Shown: positions 781 to 34,651 of the stretch, piece after piece
Numbering within the stretch: position 1 is the first letter of the stretch
Layout of the letters: every line of letters begins with the position of its first letter
Assembly: GCA_017459425.1 (NCBI GenBank)
Contig: JAFUCZ010000015.1
Location: forward strand, 1 to 34,651
Length of the DNA stretch: 34,651 nucleotides
Source: Bacilli bacterium
GTDB taxonomy: Bacteria > Bacillota_I > Bacilli_A > RF39 > UBA660
Direction: 5' to 3'
Position numbers and translations under genes: made by a program
The notes under the pieces: model-generated
The model's database searches: none
What the model was told of the DNA's origin: nothing
Seen by the model: only the letters and a program-made list of their open reading frames with translations

Positions 781-1312
781 TTTCATTTTTTAATTCTTCA
801 TATTTTTTATAATACTCTATATTATTATCTTCGTTAAAAATTTCATCATTATTTTTATATTTTTTTATTAATTCATCAAGTGAACTTTTTATAACAAAAT
901 CCAGTTCATCTGAATAGTTCATTATTTTTTTATGGTATTTATATTCTAGTCTATCCAATATTTTATACTCTTTACTAGGGAAAACTCTTAAATCAAGATC
1001 ATAATCTATATATTTTATAGTATTATCTTCTATGATAAATGGTGTTGCAATATTACAATAATAATATATACCATCTTTTTTTAATTGTGAAATTACATTA
1101 AACCATTTTTTATAGAAAAAATATAATATAGCTGGTTCTTTTGTTTTCCAAACGCCACCCTCTGCTTCCGTCACTAGTGTTTTTTTGTTTCCAAATACAA
1201 TGTATTCATCCTTTATATCAAGTACTACAGCTTCATCCCATGCTCTATGAATTTTTCCATTATGCTTGTAACATTGTATTTCAAGTTTATCTCCTATTCT
1301 TAAATTATTCAT
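761..1312 (-). CDS. DUF402 nucleoside tri-/diphosphate phosphatase (Ntdp-like)
   Basis: The 183-residue product matches the DUF402 family, whose Staphylococcus and Bacillus members hydrolyse nucleoside di- and triphosphates. The N-terminal small barrel (IGDKLEIQ, then KIHRAWDEAVVLD) and the middle Y-Y-C-N-I-A-T-P with later D-Y-D-L-D-L-R-V acidic segment are typical of the family. An open frame extends 19 codons further upstream, but an AAAGGGGAG ribosome binding site sits just before the internal ATG at 1312, so I start there. A TATAAT-like box lies a little upstream. It is the last gene before the rRNA promoters and is probably monocistronic, because a terminator lies upstream at 1365-1391. 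Confidence 0.8.
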   Translation of the reverse strand: MNNLRIGDKLEIQCYKHNGKIHRAWDEAVVLDIKDEYIVFGNKKTLVTEAEGGVWKTKEPAILYFFYKKWFNVISQLKKDGIYYYCNIATPFIIEDNTIKYIDYDLDLRVFPSKEYKILDRLEYKYHKKIMNYSDELDFVIKSSLDELIKKYKNNDEIFNEDNNIEYYKKYEELKNEKNDSNL

Positions 1313-1364
1313 AAATATCTTCTCCCCTTTCATTATAATATTTTTTTCAAAAAAAAGAAAGTAA

Positions 1365-1391
1365 AACACTGTTTATATTTTAAACAGTGTT
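1365..1391 (-). terminator. terminator of the S41 protease gene
   Basis: Ten-base-pair inverted repeat AACACTGTTT / AAACAGTGTT followed on the minus strand by a T-rich run. It overlaps the protease stop codon. Confidence 0.65.
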
Positions 1392-2598
1392 ATTTTTTTA
1401 GTTCATTTATAGCAGTTTGTAATTGATTATCGTTTTCTTCTGTTGGATTTTCTTTGTAATCTTCAGATAATTCAACTTCAATATCTGGCTTTATTCCTAC
1501 TTCATTTATCCAATTACCTTTTGGTGTTAACCATTTTTTAGTAGTGAATTTATATTCTGAATTAGAAGATAAATTTATTAATTCTTGAACTGTTCCCTTT
1601 CCATATGTTGTAGTTCCTACTAATTTTGCGCCATATTCTTCCGTTAATGCTGCAATCATTACTTCAGATGCAGATGCTGTATTTTTATTACCAAGTAAAA
1701 CAATTTTATATTTTTTTGTTGTATTACCACTTGAATAATACTTCGTTGTTTTTTCTTTTTTCTGCATTTGATAAATTACATGGCTACTATCTAAAAATTG
1801 TGAAATCATATCTTCAACTGTAGTCAAGTGCCCACCAGTGTTATCTCTTAAATCGATTATAAGACTATCAATTTTTTTCAATTCTAATTCATTTAAAGCC
1901 TTTTTAAATTGATCTGCAGTGTTTGCAGCAAATACATCTACTTTAATGTATCCTATATTTTTACCCTCGGATTCTATAATTTTACCACTTGCCGATTTGA
2001 TTACGACATTTTCGCGTTTTAAATTAATTTCAACTTCTTCGCCGTTTCTAATTACTATTATATTAAAATTCGAATCTTTCGATGAACTTATGTATGATGT
2101 TATATCAGTACCTTTTTTCCCTAAAAAGTTTTCACCATTAATTGTTTTAAATACATCGCCCGGTTTTAATCCTGCTTTATCTGCTGGTGAATCTTCAAAA
2201 ACATTAAATATAACAATATTAGAATCACTATCTTCTGTTATTTCTACACCTATTCCTTGATAAACTCCCGCTAGTTGCTTATTAAATGTGTCAGATGTTT
2301 CTTCATTAAGATAATTTGCATATGGATCTCCAAGTGCTGAAAGCATACCATCTAATGCACCATTTAATAATTCTTTTTTGTCAACTTTATCGTAATAGTT
2401 ATTTAAAATATATTTATAATTATTTATAAATTCATTTAATTCTTCGTCATCAGATTTATCTGAAAAAATAATATCCGAGTTTTTAAGTTTTTTTATAGCA
2501 GTACTAAACAAAAATCCAGTTGTTAAACTTATTACGCATGTAATAACAAGTAATATTACTACCTCCGATACTTTAAATCCCTTTTCTTTTTTTTTCAT
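1390..2598 (-). CDS. S41 carboxyl-terminal processing protease (CtpA/CtpB family)
   Basis: 402-residue membrane-anchored serine protease. Residues 10-33 form an N-terminal membrane anchor. A PDZ domain follows (about 110-195; AGLKPGDVFKTING). The S41 catalytic domain runs from about 210 to 375. The Ser-Lys pair is visible: Ser309 in NTASASEVM and Lys334 in YGKGTVQ, with Gln338, the same spacing as in Bacillus CtpB. Family members cleave extracytoplasmic substrates; CtpB cuts SpoIVFA in the sigma-K checkpoint of sporulation, which is possible here given the spore genes nearby but not shown. RBS AGAGGTG precedes the ATG. The gene lies 13 bases downstream of the thioredoxin-like gene, so the two are probably cotranscribed. 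Confidence 0.9.
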   Translation of the reverse strand: MKKKEKGFKVSEVVILLVITCVISLTTGFLFSTAIKKLKNSDIIFSDKSDDEELNEFINNYKYILNNYYDKVDKKELLNGALDGMLSALGDPYANYLNEETSDTFNKQLAGVYQGIGVEITEDSDSNIVIFNVFEDSPADKAGLKPGDVFKTINGENFLGKKGTDITSYISSSKDSNFNIIVIRNGEEVEINLKRENVVIKSASGKIIESEGKNIGYIKVDVFAANTADQFKKALNELELKKIDSLIIDLRDNTGGHLTTVEDMISQFLDSSHVIYQMQKKEKTTKYYSSGNTTKKYKIVLLGNKNTASASEVMIAALTEEYGAKLVGTTTYGKGTVQELINLSSNSEYKFTTKKWLTPKGNWINEVGIKPDIEVELSEDYKENPTEENDNQLQTAINELKK

Positions 2599-2611
2599 GC
2601 TGCACCTCTTT

Positions 2612-3097
2612 TTATTCTTTTTCGCTTGTCGAATTTGCTTTTAATGTGTTTTCTATTTGTTCGTTTTCTTCATAAGAATTAACTATTTTACCATTTTCTA
2701 TTTCTAATAAAGTTGTATTTTTAAATCTTATTTCACTAATGTTATCAACATATAAATTAGATTCATCTGATTTATATGTTTTATTAAATGCATTTTCTAA
2801 ATCACAGAAAAATACTTTCTTAGTATTGTTATTAGAGCCAATATATTGAGATAATGTTGTTTCAGATGATGAATCTTCAACTAAAACATAATATGTTTCT
2901 TTTTTTCTATTTAGAATTTCACCAACTAAAATTTCATCATATTGAATGGCTGCATTGTTTGATTCTTTTTTTGTTTCCTTATTATTAGTAACAAGTAATG
3001 TTATTCCATAAAACGCAATAAAAGCAATTATTACAACAACTACAAATTTAATTAAACTTATTAAGTTAAATTCATCTGTATTATTATTTTTCTTCAT
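2612..3097 (-). CDS. membrane-anchored thioredoxin-like protein without CXXC
   Basis: 161 residues: a short cytoplasmic tail, one transmembrane segment (about residues 15-37), a polar linker and an extracytoplasmic domain. The domain reads like a thioredoxin fold (KKVFFCDLENAFN strand-helix; NTTLLEIENGKIVNSYE resembles the usual cis-Pro/beta-hairpin region) but has no CXXC active site, so a redox role is unlikely; a binding or accessory role is possible. I moved the start 12 codons downstream to the ATG at 3097, which follows a GGTGAT ribosome binding site. It is followed closely by the S41 protease gene. The fold call is a weak similarity judgement. Confidence 0.6.
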   Translation of the reverse strand: MKKNNNTDEFNLISLIKFVVVVIIAFIAFYGITLLVTNNKETKKESNNAAIQYDEILVGEILNRKKETYYVLVEDSSSETTLSQYIGSNNNTKKVFFCDLENAFNKTYKSDESNLYVDNISEIRFKNTTLLEIENGKIVNSYEENEQIENTLKANSTSEKE

Positions 3098-3137
3098 TAA
3101 ATCACCACTCTCAAAAACAATTATATCACACAAAAAA

Positions 3138-3165
3138 GAAAATAGATAGTTTTTTATCTATTTTC
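3138..3165 (-). terminator. terminator of the YdcC-like gene
   Basis: Eleven-base-pair stem GAAAATAGATA / TATCTATTTTC with a run of T on the minus strand. It overlaps the stop codon of the YdcC-like gene and separates it from the thioredoxin-like gene. Confidence 0.8.
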
Positions 3166-4159
3166 CAATAGGAATTGAGCTTACAGAGTTTGCCACACTT
3201 ATTAATTCTTCTTCATTTAATTTATCCGAAACCAAATAATATTCTACTCCATCGCTATACCACGTCAAAGAGTTATCATTTAATATAGCTATCGAATCAC
3301 CCAAAAATTCAATATCGCCGTTTGTAGGAATTGTAGTTAAGTCATTATTAGTTGTACTTACTTCTTGTATAAGCATAAACGGTTTTTCTCCAGAGAAAGT
3401 CATAATAATTCTTTCACCATTTTCAATTGATACTTTATCTTGGCTAGATAATGTTGTATTAGTAGGTATATACATAGGATATGTAGTATCATCCAATTTG
3501 CTTACTTGTGAATTATTTTTGCTAGCAGTAGAACCACTCATATTTTCTTTAACCGAAAAATAATTTTTATTATAAGTTGCTTTCATATCTGTATCTTTAT
3601 ATATCATTCGCATTTTTACATTATCTTCATCATCCAAAATTTCTACTTTTTCTATTTCATTATTTTTATTGATATATACTTTTTGTTTTTTTAGATTTTT
3701 ATTATTAGAATAGTTTACTTTAGAAATAATTTCATATCCATCTTTAGTTAAATTAAATGTTCTTTTTGAATCATTTGTTATATCATTTAATACGGTTTGA
3801 AATAAGTAAGCCTGAGAATTGTTATATGGCCAGTCACTTTGAAATTTAAAACTCTTATTAAGTGACGGTGTTAAAACATAAACTCCATCATTATTCTTTA
3901 GTATTATTTGTTCATGATTGTTTGTTTTATTTTTTAAACTTACTCTATACTTATCGTCTTTTTCATATGATACATCAACATCATATTTGTAAACATCTTC
4001 ATTATTATATATTTCTAAATCTCCTGTTGCATGATATCCAGTAGTTTTTTCTATTTTGTTTTTCATTTTTTTTATAACATATTTTTCATCTTTTTTTCCA
4101 CAACCACTTAATAATATGCAAAAACAAATCATACTAGCCAAAAAAATCTTTTTTTTCAT
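3158..4159 (-). CDS. LolA-like sporulation lipoprotein (YdcC/GerS-like)
   Basis: 333-residue lipoprotein. The signal peptide ends in a lipobox LLSGC (Cys20), so it is lipid-anchored outside the membrane. The mature part has the LolA/LolB-like open beta-barrel pattern of Bacillus YdcC and Clostridioides GerS, with the characteristic block TPSLNKSFKFQSDWPYNNSQ around residues 97-116. YdcC is made in the mother cell during sporulation and GerS is needed for cortex modification and germination; a similar role is inferred from the family and the spore-gene context. The RBS GAGGTGA sits 6 bases before the ATG. It has its own terminator. Confidence 0.75.
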   Translation of the reverse strand: MKKKIFLASMICFCILLSGCGKKDEKYVIKKMKNKIEKTTGYHATGDLEIYNNEDVYKYDVDVSYEKDDKYRVSLKNKTNNHEQIILKNNDGVYVLTPSLNKSFKFQSDWPYNNSQAYLFQTVLNDITNDSKRTFNLTKDGYEIISKVNYSNNKNLKKQKVYINKNNEIEKVEILDDEDNVKMRMIYKDTDMKATYNKNYFSVKENMSGSTASKNNSQVSKLDDTTYPMYIPTNTTLSSQDKVSIENGERIIMTFSGEKPFMLIQEVSTTNNDLTTIPTNGDIEFLGDSIAILNDNSLTWYSDGVEYYLVSDKLNEEELISVANSVSSIPIGK

Positions 4160-4273
4160 TTTTTCACCTCAAATTTCATTTCAATTAATTATATTGTTAT
4201 TTTTTTCTTTTATGAATGAATAATATAGAAAAAATTGTAAATGATATTTAATGATAATTGAAAGGAGAAAACT

Positions 4274-4486
4274 ATGGAAACATTACAAAAAACTGCACTA
4301 GTCGTTACAATTATTGGCGCTTTAAACTGGCTGCTAATAGGATTGTTTGAGTTTGATTTAGTCGCTTCAATATTTGGTGAATTATCATTTTTAACCAAAT
4401 TAATTTATATTTTAGTAGGTATTGCAGGTTTAATCAATATAGGAATTTTATTCGAACACATAGGTAACAGAAAAGAACTTCATTAG
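4274..4486 (+). CDS. DUF378 small membrane protein
   Basis: 70 residues with two transmembrane helices (about 8-28 and 41-60). The sequence IGALNWLLIGLFEFDLVA is the hallmark of DUF378, a small inner-membrane family of unknown function. An excellent RBS, AAAGGAG, lies before the ATG. It is an isolated plus-strand gene between two minus-strand units, convergent with cdaR, and ends in a shared hairpin. Confidence 0.9.
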   Translation: METLQKTALVVTIIGALNWLLIGLFEFDLVASIFGELSFLTKLIYILVGIAGLINIGILFEHIGNRKELH

Positions 4487-17142: not shown

Positions 17143-17219
17143 TGGTCGGAAAAACAGGATTTGAACCTGCAACCCCTACATCCCAAATGTAGTGCACTAC
17201 CAAGTTGTGCTATTTTCCG
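17143..17219 (-). tRNA. tRNA-Pro(TGG)
   Basis: Last of the 12-gene operon. Acceptor CGGAAAA pairs with TTTTCCG; C1-G72 as expected for Pro. Loop TTTGGGA gives anticodon TGG. CCA is encoded. Confidence 0.95.
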
Positions 17220-17224
17220 ATATA

Positions 17225-17301
17225 TGGTGCGCTCGAAGGGATTCGAACCCCTGACCTTTTGGTTCGTAGCCAAACACTCTATCCAGCTGAGCTACGAGCG
17301 C
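17225..17301 (-). tRNA. tRNA-Arg(ACG)
   Basis: Acceptor GCGCTCG pairs with CGAGCGC. Loop CTACGAA gives anticodon ACG (A34 normally edited to inosine by TadA). CCA encoded. Confidence 0.97.
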
Positions 17302-17324
17302 AGCTACGTTTGTATATAAAAAAA

Positions 17325-17400
17325 TGGTGGCTCCGAGTGGGATTGAACCACCGACACCAGGATTTTCAGTCCTGTGCTCTACCGACTGAGCTACAGAGCC
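17325..17400 (-). tRNA. tRNA-Phe(GAA)
   Basis: Acceptor GGCTCTG pairs with CGGAGCC (one U-G pair). Loop CTGAAAA gives anticodon GAA. CCA encoded. Confidence 0.97.
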
Positions 17401-17409
17401 AACTTAAAA

Positions 17410-17485
17410 TGGCGGTCCCGACGAGAATTGAACTCGCGATCTTCTGCGTGACAGGCAGACGTGATAACCGCTACACCACGGGACC
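17410..17485 (-). tRNA. tRNA-Asp(GTC)
   Basis: Acceptor GGTCCCG pairs with CGGGACC; discriminator G73 as in Asp tRNAs. Loop CTGTCAC gives anticodon GTC. CCA encoded. Confidence 0.97.
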
Positions 17486-17488
17486 ATT

Positions 17489-17565
<77 letters not shown>

Positions 17566-17578
17566 ATATATATATTAG

Positions 17579-17669
17579 TGGCGGAGAAAGAGGGATTCGA
17601 ACCCCCGCGCCGTTGCCGACCTCCTGGTTTTCAAGACCAGTCCCTTCAACCAGACTTGGGTATTTCTCC
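17579..17669 (-). tRNA. tRNA-Ser(TGA)
   Basis: 91 bases with a long variable arm. Acceptor GGAGAAA pairs with TTTCTCC; G73. Loop CTTGAAA gives anticodon TGA. CCA encoded. Confidence 0.96.
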
Positions 17670-17678
17670 AAAAAAATA

Positions 17679-17767
17679 TGGTGCCTAAGGCCGGACTTGA
17701 ACCGGCACGGGATTTGACTCCCGCAGGATTTTAAGTCCTGTGCGTCTACCAATTTCGCCACTCAGGC
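17679..17767 (-). tRNA. tRNA-Leu(TAA)
   Basis: 89 bases with a long variable arm. Acceptor GCCTGAG pairs with CTTAGGC; A73. Loop CTTAAAA gives anticodon TAA. CCA encoded. Confidence 0.96.
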
Positions 17768-17774
17768 ACAAAAA

Positions 17775-17850
17775 TGGTGTCCCGTACAGAATTCGAATCT
17801 GTGACCCTTTGATTAAAAGTCAAATGCTCTACCAGCTGAGCTAACGGGAC
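17775..17850 (-). tRNA. tRNA-Lys(TTT)
   Basis: Acceptor GTCCCGT pairs with ACGGGAC. Loop CTTTTAA gives anticodon TTT. CCA encoded. Confidence 0.97.
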
Positions 17851-17862
17851 ATATAATATTAG

Positions 17863-17937
17863 TGGCTGCCTCGGCTAGATTCGAACTAGCGCATGCCACA
17901 GTCAAAGTGTGGTGCCTTACCGCTTGGCTACGAGGCA
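17863..17937 (-). tRNA. tRNA-Gln(TTG)
   Basis: Acceptor TGCCTCG pairs with CGAGGCA (U1-A72), G73. Loop CTTTGAC gives anticodon TTG. CCA encoded. Confidence 0.96.
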
Positions 17938-17952
17938 ATAAGTAACAATTAG

Positions 17953-18036
17953 TGGTGGAAGGAGATGGATTCGAACCATCGAACCCGAAGGAACAGATTT
18001 ACAGTCTGCCGCGTTTAGCCACTTCGCTACCCTTCC
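17953..18036 (-). tRNA. tRNA-Tyr(GTA)
   Basis: 84 bases with a long variable arm. Acceptor GGAAGGG pairs with CTCCTTCC-type 3' strand. Loop CTGTAAA gives anticodon GTA. CCA encoded. Confidence 0.96.
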
Positions 18037-18043
18037 AAATAAA

Positions 18044-18119
<76 letters not shown>

Positions 18120-18120
18120 A

Positions 18121-18197
18121 TGGTGGGCGATATAGGACTCGAACCTATGACCCCTTGCTTGTAAGGCAAGTGCTCTAACCAACTGAGCTAATCGCCC
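18121..18197 (-). tRNA. tRNA-Val(TAC)
   Basis: First gene of the operon; only one base separates it from tRNA-Thr. Acceptor GGGCGAT pairs with ATCGCCC. Loop CTTACAA gives anticodon TAC. CCA encoded. Confidence 0.97.
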
Positions 18198-19897: not shown

Positions 19898-21112
19898 TTA
19901 TTTAATAATTTCAATATATAATGCGCATAAAAATTCCTTTTTAAACATTGTAGCAAGAAACATCAAATCGTCGCTACCTTCATTTATCTTTATATATATA
20001 TATTTAACTAATTTCTTTTTTTCAAGTAACTTTAAACTTTTTAATGCTCCATTAATATTATTTATTTCAACAATATTTATTTTATCTAATAATATTTTAT
20101 TATACTTTGAAATTCTATATATTTTTGTATCATCCATTTCATAAATAACGCCTAATTTTTCAATTGTATCTAACAAAGTTTTTTTATCATTGTCAAAAAC
20201 TTTTTTAAATGTTTTATCTTTTATTATTTTTTTTAAACTATTTCTTTCATTTTCTATATTCAATATTTTTTTTAATTTATCAAAAAATTTGTGTTCATAT
20301 TTTTTATATATTTTATTTGCTTGATGTTTTTTAAAAGTAAATATTTCTCCATCTAATTTTCCATATTCTTTTAAAGTATCAGTATAGCCATAAAAGATAT
20401 TCTTATTCGACAAATATGAATCAAAAATCAAAAATGATCCTAAATCATGCTTAGATTTTATAATCTTAACATCAACATTTTTATATTTCGTCTTTCGCTT
20501 TAGTCCTACAGCATCTAAATCTACCGCTATTATTTGTTCAGCACCCATTTTACAAGCTAAGTTAATTGGCAAGTTATCATAATATCCACCATCGATATAA
20601 TATTCTTTTTCAATTTCTTTTTTTTGAAACGCAGGGAAACAAGATGCAGAGGCAATCAAATAATCCTTTAGTTTTCCTTTTGGAATTTCATTTTTAGTTA
20701 AACTTAAGCTTTTTAATCTTGGATACTTTACTGTAACAAGTCCAAAATCTATATTTGATTTTAAAACTTTGTCCTCATCAACTAATTTTTCTATTGCTTC
20801 GTATAAATTAACTGCATTCATTCCACCTTCAAAAACTATATTTTTAGCATATGTTTTCACAATTTTTTTTGTATCAGTTACATTCATGTTATTACTTGTA
20901 TTTTGATCAAAAACAACATTAAAATTCATATTCGACCATAATTTATATGCTTTTTTATAGTTTTTTTGGGTCATTAAAACTCCATTTAATGCGCCAACAG
21001 AAGTTCCTGTAACAATATTATATTTTATTCTTAGTTTTTTTAGTGCTTTCCAAACACCAATTTGATAGGCTCCTCTTGACCCACCACCAGATAATACGAT
21101 TGCGACTTTCAT
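19898..21112 (-). CDS. patatin-like phospholipase
   Basis: 404 residues. The N-terminal half (1-200) is a patatin lipid acyl hydrolase: oxyanion loop GGGSRGAYQ, nucleophile Ser38 in GTSVG, and catalytic Asp174 in IDGGYYDN. The C-terminal 200 residues are Lys-rich and helical, with no recognised domain. Such proteins hydrolyse membrane phospholipids; in bacteria they range from housekeeping lipid turnover to effectors of defence systems, but nothing adjacent supports a defence role. RBS GGTGTT. A TATAAT at the upstream end faces the divergent TATAAT of the next gene. Confidence 0.88.
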   Translation of the reverse strand: MKVAIVLSGGGSRGAYQIGVWKALKKLRIKYNIVTGTSVGALNGVLMTQKNYKKAYKLWSNMNFNVVFDQNTSNNMNVTDTKKIVKTYAKNIVFEGGMNAVNLYEAIEKLVDEDKVLKSNIDFGLVTVKYPRLKSLSLTKNEIPKGKLKDYLIASASCFPAFQKKEIEKEYYIDGGYYDNLPINLACKMGAEQIIAVDLDAVGLKRKTKYKNVDVKIIKSKHDLGSFLIFDSYLSNKNIFYGYTDTLKEYGKLDGEIFTFKKHQANKIYKKYEHKFFDKLKKILNIENERNSLKKIIKDKTFKKVFDNDKKTLLDTIEKLGVIYEMDDTKIYRISKYNKILLDKINIVEINNINGALKSLKLLEKKKLVKYIYIKINEGSDDLMFLATMFKKEFLCALYIEIIK

Positions 21113-29561: not shown

Positions 29562-30245
29562 ATGGATAATCAAAATGAATGTTTAAACAAAAAAATAGAA
29601 GAACTTCAACATAGAGAAAAAAAGAAATGTTGTAACTATATTCCATTTATGATTCCACCAGGACCACCAGGGCCACAAGGGCCACAAGGGCCAGCAACAA
29701 TTGAAATCGGTACAGTTACAACAGGAGCACCAGGAACAAATGCAGAAGTAACTAATAGTGGAACAGACGAAGATGTTATTCTAGATTTCACTATTCCAAG
29801 AGGTAGCGATGGTAGTGATGGTTTTTTAAATTATGCTGACTTTTATGCTTTAATGCCATCTGACAATGCTGATACTGTTGCACCAGGCACAGATGTAGAT
29901 TTTCCACAAGATGGGCCAAGCAGTGGCTCTTCTATAGTAAGAGCTGGTGCAAATTCAGTTAATTTAGTTGAAATTGGTACATATCAAGTTTATTTTAGCG
30001 TTCCAATTTCTGAAGCTGGTCAATTACAATTAACACTAAATGGATCACCTTTAGCTTATACAGTAGTAGGCCGTGCGACTGGAACTAGTAACATTTCTGG
30101 TATGTTTCTTGTTGAAACATCTACAAGCAACTCTGTGTTAACAGTAAGAAATCCAGCTGGAAACCCTGCAGCTTTAACAATAACGCCATCAGCTGGAGGA
30201 GCAGCACCTGTTTCGGCTCATTTAATCATTATGCAACTTTCTTAA
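29562..30245 (+). CDS. collagen-like, BclA-type spore surface protein
   Basis: 227 residues: an N-terminal charged head (1-30) with a Cys pair, a very short collagen stretch of four G-x-y triplets (GPPGPQGPQGPA, about 33-44), a linker TGAPGTNAEVTNSGT and a C-terminal domain of about 130 residues (FLNYADFYALMPSDN..., ending HLIIMQLS). The C-terminal part matches the globular TNF-like domain of BclA-family exosporium filaments, which trimerises. The collagen run is unusually short. G+C is above its neighbours, explained by Gly/Pro/Ala codons. RBS GGGAGGT. A role on the spore surface is inferred from family and the many coat genes. Confidence 0.8.
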   Translation: MDNQNECLNKKIEELQHREKKKCCNYIPFMIPPGPPGPQGPQGPATIEIGTVTTGAPGTNAEVTNSGTDEDVILDFTIPRGSDGSDGFLNYADFYALMPSDNADTVAPGTDVDFPQDGPSSGSSIVRAGANSVNLVEIGTYQVYFSVPISEAGQLQLTLNGSPLAYTVVGRATGTSNISGMFLVETSTSNSVLTVRNPAGNPAALTITPSAGGAAPVSAHLIIMQLS

Positions 30246-31385: not shown

Positions 31386-32336
31386 CTATATATTCAATAC
31401 TTGACCAATGCTTATTATGTTATTTGTTAAGTTATTTTTTTGTTTAAGATTATCTACTGTTGTATTAAACTGTGATGCAATGCTATATAATGTATCTCCG
31501 TTTTTAACTACATATGTGGTATTTACTTGTTCGGATGGTATTTGTAATATCTGCCCAACGCTTAATAAATTACTACTTAAATTATTTATTTTCATTAAAT
31601 CTTGTATACCGACATTATAATTTCTAGAAATACTATATAGCGTATCTCCTGACTTTACTGTATATTCAATAAAATCGTTATCATTTTCACCATTTAAAGA
31701 ATTATTTGGCACTTTTAATTGTTGCCCTATACTAAGAAAATTACTTCCTAAATTATTTTTAATTCTTAATTCTTGCGGTGTAGTATTAAAATTTCTTGAT
31801 ATACTATACAGTGTATCACCATTTTTTACTGTATAAAGCATGTATTCATTTTGAACAGGTGATGACTCGGGTATTTGAAGTATTTGCCCTACATTTAATA
31901 AATTACTACTTAAATTATTTAATTGCTTTAAATCTTGCAAAGTAGTATTAAATTTTTTTGCTATGCTCCACAAACTATCACCTGATTTTACAGTATAAGT
32001 ATTTTCATTTATATTTGAATTATAGCCAATATATTCTAGTAATGCTTGAACTGTTGCTTCAGCAAGTTGTTGATAATTATTTTTAAGTAAATTAACATCA
32101 TTTCCTTTGCTATCTAAAAACCCATATTCAACTATTATAGGTTCTGTTTTCCCTGTATTTCTATGTATAAAATAATAGTCTTTTGACATATTACTTGGAA
32201 GTCTACGTTGATAAACTTTTCTTGGATTTTGGCCTGCTTTTTCTAAGTTATCTAATACTAAATTAGCAAGTTTATCATCATTTCTAAGTGCATAAATTAC
32301 TTCAGCTCCATCGCCACCTGGTGACGGCTCTAGTGG
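31386..32336 (-). pseudogene. 3' part of a LysM N-acetylmuramoyl-L-alanine amidase, interrupted by an element
   Basis: From about 32318 downwards the minus strand encodes the last half of an Amidase_3 domain: GGDGAEVIYALRND, QRRLPSN, DYYFIHRNTGKTE and the catalytic Glu in IIVEYGFLDS, then four LysM repeats (YTVKSGDSL, YTVKNGDTL, YTVKSGDTL, YVVKNGDTL). The N-terminal half, with all zinc ligands (two His and a Glu) and the normal start, is absent; instead the frame continues 6 foreign codons to a stop at 32337-32339. An internal ATG (32189) exists but would give no active enzyme. The break coincides with foreign-looking sequence carrying a serine recombinase, so the front half is expected beyond the right window edge. 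Confidence 0.85.
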
Positions 32337-32377
32337 TTATTTATTTATAATTGAATACTCTTTTACTATAGTATATT

Positions 32378-33700
32378 TTAATAATCATGATACATATTAA
32401 TTTTAATGTTTTCAAGTCGTGATTTATCAAATTTTAAATTTTTTGTTTTGCCAACAATTCTATCTTCTCCACAGAAAGGGCAAATACTATAAATATAACT
32501 ATCAGGTTTACCATGCGAATATGTTTTAAGCTTACCAAAATCAAAAATGTTAAAGCAATATATACAACCGCAACGATAATTTTTAGAAAATTTTTCTGGA
32601 TGATTCATATTGGTATGTAAATGTTCCTTTTCAATTTCAGACATTCTATTATATTTTGTTATAGCACCATTTGCTCTAATAGCTCCTGTTAAATCTGCTC
32701 CTGTATTTTTTAAATTACATCTCCAAACATCAACACCTGTAAAGTCCATACCACTCATATCTATACCTTCTAGGTTGGTTTTATATAATGATTTGTATTT
32801 TATTTTTTGTGGATTTATTTTAGCATTAGTTCCTTTTAAATTGCATCCCCTAATATCCACGCCTGTAAAATCCTTATCACTTAAATCAACATTTTCACTA
32901 AATTTACATCTACACAATGATTTATTTTTTACTAACTGTGGATTAATAGCATAATCAAATTCTATTTCTTGAACATTTACATTTTTAATAGATGCATCTG
33001 TAAAATTATCTTCATTGTTCAAGTATTTTGTTCTTTGTATCTTTTCTTTTGAAGCCAAAGACATTATCTTTTTAAAATTAATTATTTCAGCATATTTATT
33101 AATCTTTTTATTATTTATGTTTTTTAATATTTTATTTACTATCATTGAAATAGAATAATCTATAATTGAAAATGAATCAATTAAACCTATTTCTTTCGGA
33201 ATAATATGTCTTAAGCTATTAATATCAAATATAATTGTTTCATATTCATATTTTCTAATTTTTTCTAGTCCTGATTTAGCAATATCTTTTCTTTTTTCTC
33301 CCTCAAAATCAAATGGAAGAGTATGAATACCTATAATTTTAATTCCCATTTTTTTAGCAATTTTAGCAAACTCAATACTTCCTCCAGTTGTTATTCCACC
33401 ACCAAGACATGCTACAAGAATAATGACCTTAAAATCTTTTAAGTTTTCAACAACTATATTACTTCCTAAACGAACAGCTTCTTCTCCAATAGATGGGTTA
33501 CCACTACAACCAAATCCACCTGTTAATTCGGTTCCAACTAATATTCCATTCCTATCTTCAAAACAATACCATATATCATGTGAATTAGAAGAAAGGCGAT
33601 AAATATTTTTCAAATTATAGTGAGTGTTTAAACTATTTGCAACATTTCTACCACTTCCACCAACACAAATAACAGCAACTTCATTTTTTTTAGATTTCAC
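32378..33700 (-). CDS. FtsZ/tubulin-like GTPase half fused to pentapeptide repeats and a zinc ribbon
   Basis: 440 residues. Residues 5-195 align with the FtsZ nucleotide-binding half: ICVGGSGRNVANSL (T1), LTGGFGCSGNPSIGEEA (T3, as GLGAGANPE in FtsZ), LGGGITTGGSIEFAKIAKKMG (T4, FtsZ GGGTGTG; near-signature with I-T for T-G), then PFDFEGEKRKDIAKSGLEKIR and an ETIIFDINSLRH segment. The chain then leaves the fold: the T7 catalytic loop and C-terminal FtsZ domain are missing. Residues 252-337 are pentapeptide repeats in two 43-residue units. Residues 353-420 hold C377/C379/C382 and C407/C410 in a zinc-ribbon resembling a 'cytoplasmic protein' family. GTG start, RBS GAGGTGAT. Confidence 0.8.
   Translation of the reverse strand: MKSKKNEVAVICVGGSGRNVANSLNTHYNLKNIYRLSSNSHDIWYCFEDRNGILVGTELTGGFGCSGNPSIGEEAVRLGSNIVVENLKDFKVIILVACLGGGITTGGSIEFAKIAKKMGIKIIGIHTLPFDFEGEKRKDIAKSGLEKIRKYEYETIIFDINSLRHIIPKEIGLIDSFSIIDYSISMIVNKILKNINNKKINKYAEIINFKKIMSLASKEKIQRTKYLNNEDNFTDASIKNVNVQEIEFDYAINPQLVKNKSLCRCKFSENVDLSDKDFTGVDIRGCNLKGTNAKINPQKIKYKSLYKTNLEGIDMSGMDFTGVDVWRCNLKNTGADLTGAIRANGAITKYNRMSEIEKEHLHTNMNHPEKFSKNYRCGCIYCFNIFDFGKLKTYSHGKPDSYIYSICPFCGEDRIVGKTKNLKFDKSRLENIKINMYHDY
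32690..32947 (-). repeat. two 43-codon tandem repeats in the FtsZ-like fusion gene
   Basis: Protein residues 252-294 and 295-337 each begin INPQ and share the -S-L-, D-F-T-G-V-D and C-N-L-K positions. They encode the pentapeptide-repeat (quadrilateral beta-helix) segment. Divergence between copies indicates an old duplication. Confidence 0.7.
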
Positions 33701-33785
33701 CAGTAATCACCTCATAGAACTATTTTATCAAAAACTGGTACATTTTTCGAGATAATATAGTTTTTATGTTAAAATATTAAATATT

Positions 33786-34651
33786 TTATAACACATTTTT
33801 ACTACAATTAATCTTTTTTCCACATCTTCCATATGGATTTCTTATTGGATTTTTATCAACATATTTAAAAGAATAATCATCAAGTATTTTATATTTAAAT
33901 TTAATTGTTATATTTCTATCTTCATCTGCTTCGATTCTATCTATTATGGTAAATAATAAGTCTCTATTTGGTTTTTCTATATTTAATAATTCTTTTATCT
34001 TCTTCGTATAATTTGGTATTTTATTAGCACTATTTTTTCTCTTTAAAATCTCAAGTTCTATTTCTTCTAATTTATCTTTTAAGTTTCTTATTTTTTGTTC
34101 ATAAGGAGATACTATCATTTTATATGATTCTAAAGAAATGTTACCAACAATTCTATCTTGATAAACTGTCTGAATATTAGAAGATAATTTTAAAATATCC
34201 TTTTCTATATCTTTCTTTATGTCATCAAGTGATTTAGTACCTGAATTAGTTCTATTAACTATTTCTTCATTTAATTCTTTAATACTTAATTCCTTAAATA
34301 AATCATATAATAATTTGTTTAATTCTTCTAATATTTCCTCTTCAAAATAATCATAAGGAAAGAAATGCGCTTTGCATCTTCCTCTAATTGGGTCTCTAGC
34401 ATATCTATTGCAGTTAATAGTCCCATAATCATGATTCTTTCGATATATTACACCTAATCTATTTCCACATTCTTTACAATAGATTAAACCTTCAAGTAAT
34501 CTAATTGGTCTTTCCGTTTTTCTAGCAACAGTTCTATTATGATTATCTCTTTTTTTGTTTATTATTCTAAATGTCTCTTTATCTACTAATGGGTCATGAG
34601 TATTTTCTACTATTACCCATAAACTTTGATCTAGTGTTACTTTCTTTTTAG
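33786..34651 (-). CDS. large serine recombinase, C-terminal part (5' end outside window)
   Basis: The minus strand frame is open from the right window edge to the stop at 33786-33788, about 288 codons; the ATG inside it at 34118 is not the true start. Visible parts: the recombinase domain (DPLVDKETFRIINKKRD), a zinc ribbon (GLIYCKECGNRLG ... NCNRYARDP ... CKAHF), a long coiled coil (about 90-200 in this fragment) and the basic C-terminus. These are the DNA-recognition and control regions of a large serine integrase; the catalytic Ser domain lies beyond the window. Such enzymes, including SpoIVCA of the skin element, insert and excise DNA by cutting at attB/attP with 2-base overhangs. Confidence 0.92.
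   Translation of the reverse strand, partial: KKKVTLDQSLWVIVENTHDPLVDKETFRIINKKRDNHNRTVARKTERPIRLLEGLIYCKECGNRLGVIYRKNHDYGTINCNRYARDPIRGRCKAHFFPYDYFEEEILEELNKLLYDLFKELSIKELNEEIVNRTNSGTKSLDDIKKDIEKDILKLSSNIQTVYQDRIVGNISLESYKMIVSPYEQKIRNLKDKLEEIELEILKRKNSANKIPNYTKKIKELLNIEKPNRDLLFTIIDRIEADEDRNITIKFKYKILDDYSFKYVDKNPIRNPYGRCGKKINCSKNVL

Follow-up and report, generated by a model that had tools for sequence, protein, structure and literature searches.

FtsZ has been linked to bacterial immunity in two described settings. The CapRel-Ebc protein is activated by the phage inhibitor Gp0.4 bound to monomeric FtsZ, and Gp0.4 itself binds FtsZ at the T7 'synergy' loop and the C-terminal domain (PMC13423816). 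The other connection comes from Kaur et al. (2020), who list, among the effector domains of VMAP ternary conflict systems, rare ones of the FtsZ/tubulin and pentapeptide kinds (PMC7159879). The assembly of FtsZ has its own requirements: in the Staphylococcus aureus protein D46, N208, D210 and D213 are needed, and D46A fails to assemble; monomers join by way of their GTP-bound top surface at the T7-exposing filament end, and bottom-interface mutants are toxic (PMC8936486). In E. coli, FtsZ Q47K serves as a monomeric mutant (PMC13423816).

The window, i.e. the whole stretch of DNA analysed, comprises 34,651 nucleotides of a contig from a Bacilli bacterium (GCA_017459425.1, JAFUCZ010000015.1). 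At 32378..33700 on the minus strand it encodes a protein of 440 aa with a GTG start, called FtsZ-PPR-Zn here for its FtsZ-like half, pentapeptide repeats and zinc ribbon. With CapRel-Ebc immunity this protein would share a tie between FtsZ state and anti-phage defence; in that system, however, a toxin-antitoxin fusion serves as sensor and the host supplies the FtsZ, whereas here an FtsZ half lies inside the cargo protein. The likeness to VMAP systems is the occurrence of FtsZ-superfamily and pentapeptide domains in conflict proteins, but the VMAP partner genes (vWA, MoxR and VMAP) are found in neither assembled end of the element described below, about 3.7 kb of which is unassembled. No described protein with the three-domain architecture appeared in the literature searched, in agreement with the earlier note on this DNA, whose author knew of none.

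Anatomy of the protein

The FtsZ-like GTPase domain with helix H7 occupies residues 1-196 (33113..33700, minus strand). It matches Pfam Tubulin/FtsZ (PF00091, E 4e-18, residues 7-167) and NCBIfam ftsZ (TIGR00065, E 2e-33, residues 3-199); as the latter match scores 116 bits, with the cut-off set at 295, the protein is not an FtsZ by the equivalog criterion. Its closest match in a phmmer search of the PDB is FtsZ 1w5f (E 2e-22), and it is about 26-38% identical to FtsZs from related genomes. An AlphaFold2 model, built on FtsZs from related genomes, has block-mean pLDDT values of about 64-97 over residues 10-200, mostly above 80. Top Foldseek matches of this half in the PDB are all FtsZ (4dxd: E 1e-13, rmsd 2.0 over 192 columns); structure prediction of the chain alone, a check the earlier note proposed, returns an FtsZ fold and not another Rossmann fold. 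The host genome has its own ordinary FtsZ elsewhere, on contig C7.

What this half shares with FtsZ is the N-terminal GTPase fold with loops T1-T6 and most of the nucleotide pocket; T2 and T6 are altered. The motifs read GGSGRN in T1, GFGCSGNPSIG in T3, GGGITTGG in T4 and PFDFEGEKR in T5, with F177 and D181 in H7. In an alignment with 23 FtsZs, the protein agrees with 40 of the 87 near-invariant columns and departs from the other 47. Many of those kept lie at the pocket: G14, G15, G17 and N19 in T1; G62, G64, P69 and G72 in T3; G100-G102, T105 and G106 in T4; P129, F130, E133 and R137 (R143 of S. aureus FtsZ) in T5/H5; and the two H7 residues. Lost against the same 23 sequences are D46 and Q48 of T2, which have become His41 and Asp42, and N166 of T6, now Ile160.

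Helix H7 ends near residue 196, and the following stretch, residues 197-230 (33011..33112, minus strand), consists of a segment at the T7 position, NKKINKYAEIINFKKIMS, and a predicted helix H8 (209-228). Neither NxDxxD nor a T7 GxxNxD with the catalytic Asp pair could be placed in the segment NKYAEIINFKKIMS in any alignment tried. Homology to FtsZ stops at residues 192-220, ahead of the repeats; unlike FtsZ, the chain lacks the C-terminal polymerisation domain and the tail peptide, and carries repeats and a zinc ribbon instead. Taken with the published requirements for assembly, the kept pocket and the losses in T2 and T7 suggest a module that would bind GTP, be dead for hydrolysis and polymerise poorly through either face.

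The pentapeptide part (residues 244-345; 32666..32971, minus strand) comprises about two superunits of 42-43 residues of the type INPQ...DFTGV. Tandem A(D/N)LXX repeats are recognised by Pfam (PF00805, E 6e-10) and modelled as a right-handed square beta helix, with local pLDDT about 80-95; Foldseek matches of this region are weak, the top one being a pentapeptide protein (E 0.02). A linker and the zinc ribbon complete the chain (residues 346-440; 32381..32665, minus strand). The ribbon itself spans residues 370-440, with cysteines in the pattern C377-G-C379-xx-C382 ... C407-xx-C410 (CGCxxC ... CPxCG). AlphaFold2 gives no confident model for the ribbon; a profile match (E 2e-6) to phrog_30788, also annotated 'cytoplasmic protein', marks it as a member of a small orphan family. 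The same ribbon occurs alone or after another Cys-rich protein (C-terminus of L055; L051), and plasmids of Priestia and Mycobacterium carry it under the name 'cytoplasmic protein'. As to expression signals, a ribosome-binding sequence, GAGGTGA, lies at 33707..33713 (minus strand) upstream of the GTG; searches for a promoter and a terminator of the gene gave no signal above shuffled sequences.

The earlier note, made from the sequence alone, had already divided the 440-residue chain into an FtsZ GTPase domain, a pentapeptide helix and a zinc ribbon, and profile matches and model confirm the division. Its account of the motifs (T1, T3 and a T4-like GGGITTGG kept) is largely borne out by the alignment, which adds T5 as largely kept; the reported absence of the C-terminal polymerisation domain likewise stands. 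The statement that the T7 loop is lacking needs division: the catalytic Asp residues are indeed gone, but the T7/H8 region is present in degenerate form. Loss of those aspartates also supports its expectation that the protein should not hydrolyse GTP in the normal way.

The integrative element and its variable slot

FtsZ-PPR-Zn is carried on an integrative element, as the earlier note had proposed; the proof is a host gene split in two. The adjacent LysM gene (31386-32189) represents the C-terminal half of a LysM/Amidase_3 gene, a half also delimited as 31386..32318 (minus strand), while the N-terminal half is found on C18, a second contig of this genome (4039-4341, also delimited as about 4090-4356); joined at GGTGG, the two give an open frame of 402 residues running through ...HINAGGGDGAEVIYALRN.... 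The attR site, AACCACTAGAGCCGTCACCAGGTGGCGAT, is at 32310..32340 (minus strand), with an arm that the nearest sister elements conserve, and the C-terminal half of a large serine recombinase (33786..34649, minus strand) is cut off by the end of the contig. The element thus shows its recombinase, its two att ends and a split target gene. The size of the unassembled gap, and a total of about 10 kb for the whole element, are estimates from comparison with the sister element L088. An assembly chimera is ruled out, since recombinase and att boundaries agree with those of sister elements.

On the C18 end of the element lie a C5 methyltransferase (PADLOC, E 8e-168), an AbiL-like ATPase (E 1e-40) and the candidate defence gene PDC-M36A (E 8e-24). 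The outermost C18 bases begin a frame that matches, in a stretch of 94.6% DNA identity, the MutH/Sau3AI-type REase of L088 (PADLOC, E 3e-106). As a control, ten host genes of the window gave one weak PADLOC match. FtsZ-PPR-Zn itself matches no PADLOC model.

Many genomes of this bacterial family have related recombinases, with 46-93% identity. In 16 of 19 loci examined the corresponding half of that amidase gene adjoins the recombinase end by protein match, and in L089 it does so by DNA match together with the attR arm; of the remaining loci, L098 has the LysM part only and L099 no amidase half within reach. The space between recombinase stop and att is a variable slot, and it is this slot that FtsZ-PPR-Zn occupies here. 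In five sister elements the slot holds known, candidate or defence-associated genes: a type III-A retron pair in L097 (G215:C13, 1291-3688; RT, E 7e-105; PRTase, E 1e-29), DUF4238 in L089, PDC-S64 with DUF4238 in L101, a Schlafen-AlbA_2 protein in L098 and a weakly matching HEPN protein in L105. Elsewhere it holds different or uncharacterised proteins, and it is empty in L091, L095 and L106. FtsZ-PPR-Zn is therefore placed in a slot, and on an element, that carry defence genes, and the defence or mobile context that the earlier note had thought possible is now much stronger.

Several slot genes matched no family (L088:9889-10656, L090:9800-11432, L102:9838-10713, L104:2289-3044 and L100:6022-9744), the search having covered some, not all, of the libraries for L102 and part of the L100 genes. 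At the other end of L088, a Pycsar set (PycC, PycTM and a second PycC-like gene) is found at 1106-3758 (G019:C9). The slot in the amidase gene, small and easy to read, can serve as a source of defence candidates, and its uncharacterised occupants are worth testing.

Relatives and parallel fusions

The earlier note had also called for a search for the same three-domain order in other genomes, which leaves FtsZ-PPR-Zn single so far. Overlapping genome samples of the family (243), class (395), order (385) and phylum (392) yielded ordinary FtsZs only and no second FtsZ-pentapeptide protein, and a tblastn search of phages and plasmids gave none either. No relative came from pattern scans, a method that detects close relatives only, of IMG/VR and some 85,000 species genomes. 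Two viral matches were rejected as relatives: MT835896 is an ordinary bacterial dcw/ftsZ stretch and L067 an ordinary FtsZ. Another divergent form turned up as well, a second FtsZ paralogue of 498 aa with a long N-terminal extension (L023:6192-7688; G037:C6), in which T4 is altered (GRGTGSVG) and T7 is kept (NLDYAD).

Searched with the C-terminal part, 20 of the 243 family genomes contain the same pentapeptide type, which follows various N-terminal regions. A match in G126 spanning residues 158-335 was rejected as an FtsZ fusion; it belongs to a DnaB_C domain (E 1e-36) fused to INPQ-type repeats (L035:8925-10271, G126:C50), at a locus with a Rep gene (ORF2/G2P) beside tRNA-Leu. This fusion is a second case in which the nucleotide-binding domain of an essential host machine precedes the same repeats. 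It differs from FtsZ-PPR-Zn in having DnaB in place of FtsZ, with the Walker motifs kept, in its larger number of repeat units, and in a C-terminal end that runs off the contig. Genes with long INPQ pentapeptide arrays, some in tandem, are present at four more loci of related genomes (L024, L040, L048 and L052).

Possible functions

The best-supported way to understand the protein, favoured here tentatively, is as defence cargo whose non-polymerising, hydrolysis-dead FtsZ half would act as bait or GTP sensor. The element would then be a defence-carrying one of the serine-recombinase type, inserting into a conserved amidase gene, and its cargo protein an anti-phage one that senses infection: the FtsZ half would be bait for a factor acting on FtsZ, be it one of its partners or a division inhibitor from a phage, or would read the GTP state, while pentapeptide helix and zinc ribbon might be scaffold, output or target-binding parts. 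This reading is favoured because element and sister slots carry defence genes, as against the single weak match among the host genes; because pocket residues are kept while T2, T6 and T7 residues are lost; because DnaB_C, at a locus with a Rep gene, is joined to pentapeptide repeats of the same type; and because the CapRel-Ebc precedent makes FtsZ part of a phage-infection signal (PMC13423816). The defence link is guilt by association, yet positionally precise.

Other points count against the defence reading. Pentapeptide repeat and zinc ribbon both lack a known effector role, which leaves the protein with no assigned activity in killing or signalling; with one known copy, constraint on the protein is not measurable; no PADLOC model matches it; and since several sister slot genes are of no known function, defence need not be the sole use of the slot. 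Bait for inhibitors of the type of Gp0.4, the best-characterised FtsZ trigger, is an unlikely role, as the parts that Gp0.4 binds, T7 loop and C-terminal domain, are lost or missing; some other ligand would be needed.

Plant NLRs carry integrated decoys of attacked host proteins. A bolder version of the defence reading, rather improbable as it stands, supposes the same design here: a degraded half of an essential phage target (FtsZ, with DnaB in parallel), fused with a common pentapeptide module and carried from genome to genome by defence elements, which would catch the phage factor that attacks the host protein and trigger immunity. Were this confirmed, bacteria too would be shown to make immune proteins that contain the host protein under attack, and the recent finding that ties FtsZ to phage defence would be extended.

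Selective retention of the nucleotide pocket, with filament-contact and catalytic residues lost, would also suit a switch unrelated to FtsZ function, in which the domain is reused as a GTP/GDP sensor governing the pentapeptide and zinc parts; that the same repeat is combined, as a module, with DnaB_C, a different nucleotide-binding domain, points the same way. We consider such a switch unlikely: the literature searched holds no known case, and loss of the guanine-contacting T6 Asn and of the T2 Asp near the Mg site may leave nucleotide affinity and specificity low.

Equally in doubt is a division poison. Here the nucleotide face of the FtsZ half would bind host FtsZ filaments at their T7 end and stop them growing, on activation or constitutively at low level, leading to abortive infection or element maintenance. 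The kept pocket residues and R137 would allow it, and the growth of filaments at the T7-exposing end and the toxicity of bottom-interface mutants provide a rationale (PMC8936486). But the docking face is damaged: the T2 positions needed there for assembly are His41 and Asp42, at sites where S. aureus D46A (PMC8936486) and E. coli Q47K (PMC13423816) illustrate the consequence. Capping of host FtsZ, a possibility raised in the earlier note, is weakened by these replacements.

That the gene is a functionless accident of fusion, or cargo in decay, is doubtful. The single copy and the 47 changed columns would fit, but 440 codons stay open through three domains behind a ribosome-binding sequence, zinc cysteines and nucleotide motifs are intact, and boundaries agree with the conserved slot. 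Very improbable, finally, is a DNA mimic like MfpA or Qnr that protects topoisomerase or blocks restriction, with FtsZ and zinc parts as accessories: pentapeptide fold (Pfam, model) and a restriction-modification set on the same element speak for it, but the repeat domain is not acidic (net charge about +1.4) and scores far under the MfpA and HetL model cut-offs.

Elsewhere the window holds a cluster of 12 tRNA genes (17143-18197, minus strand), a 404-aa protein weakly matching phospholipase defence effectors (19898-21112) and a 227-aa protein with a weak, exosporium-like match to the BclA C-terminus, under the family cut-off (29562-30245).
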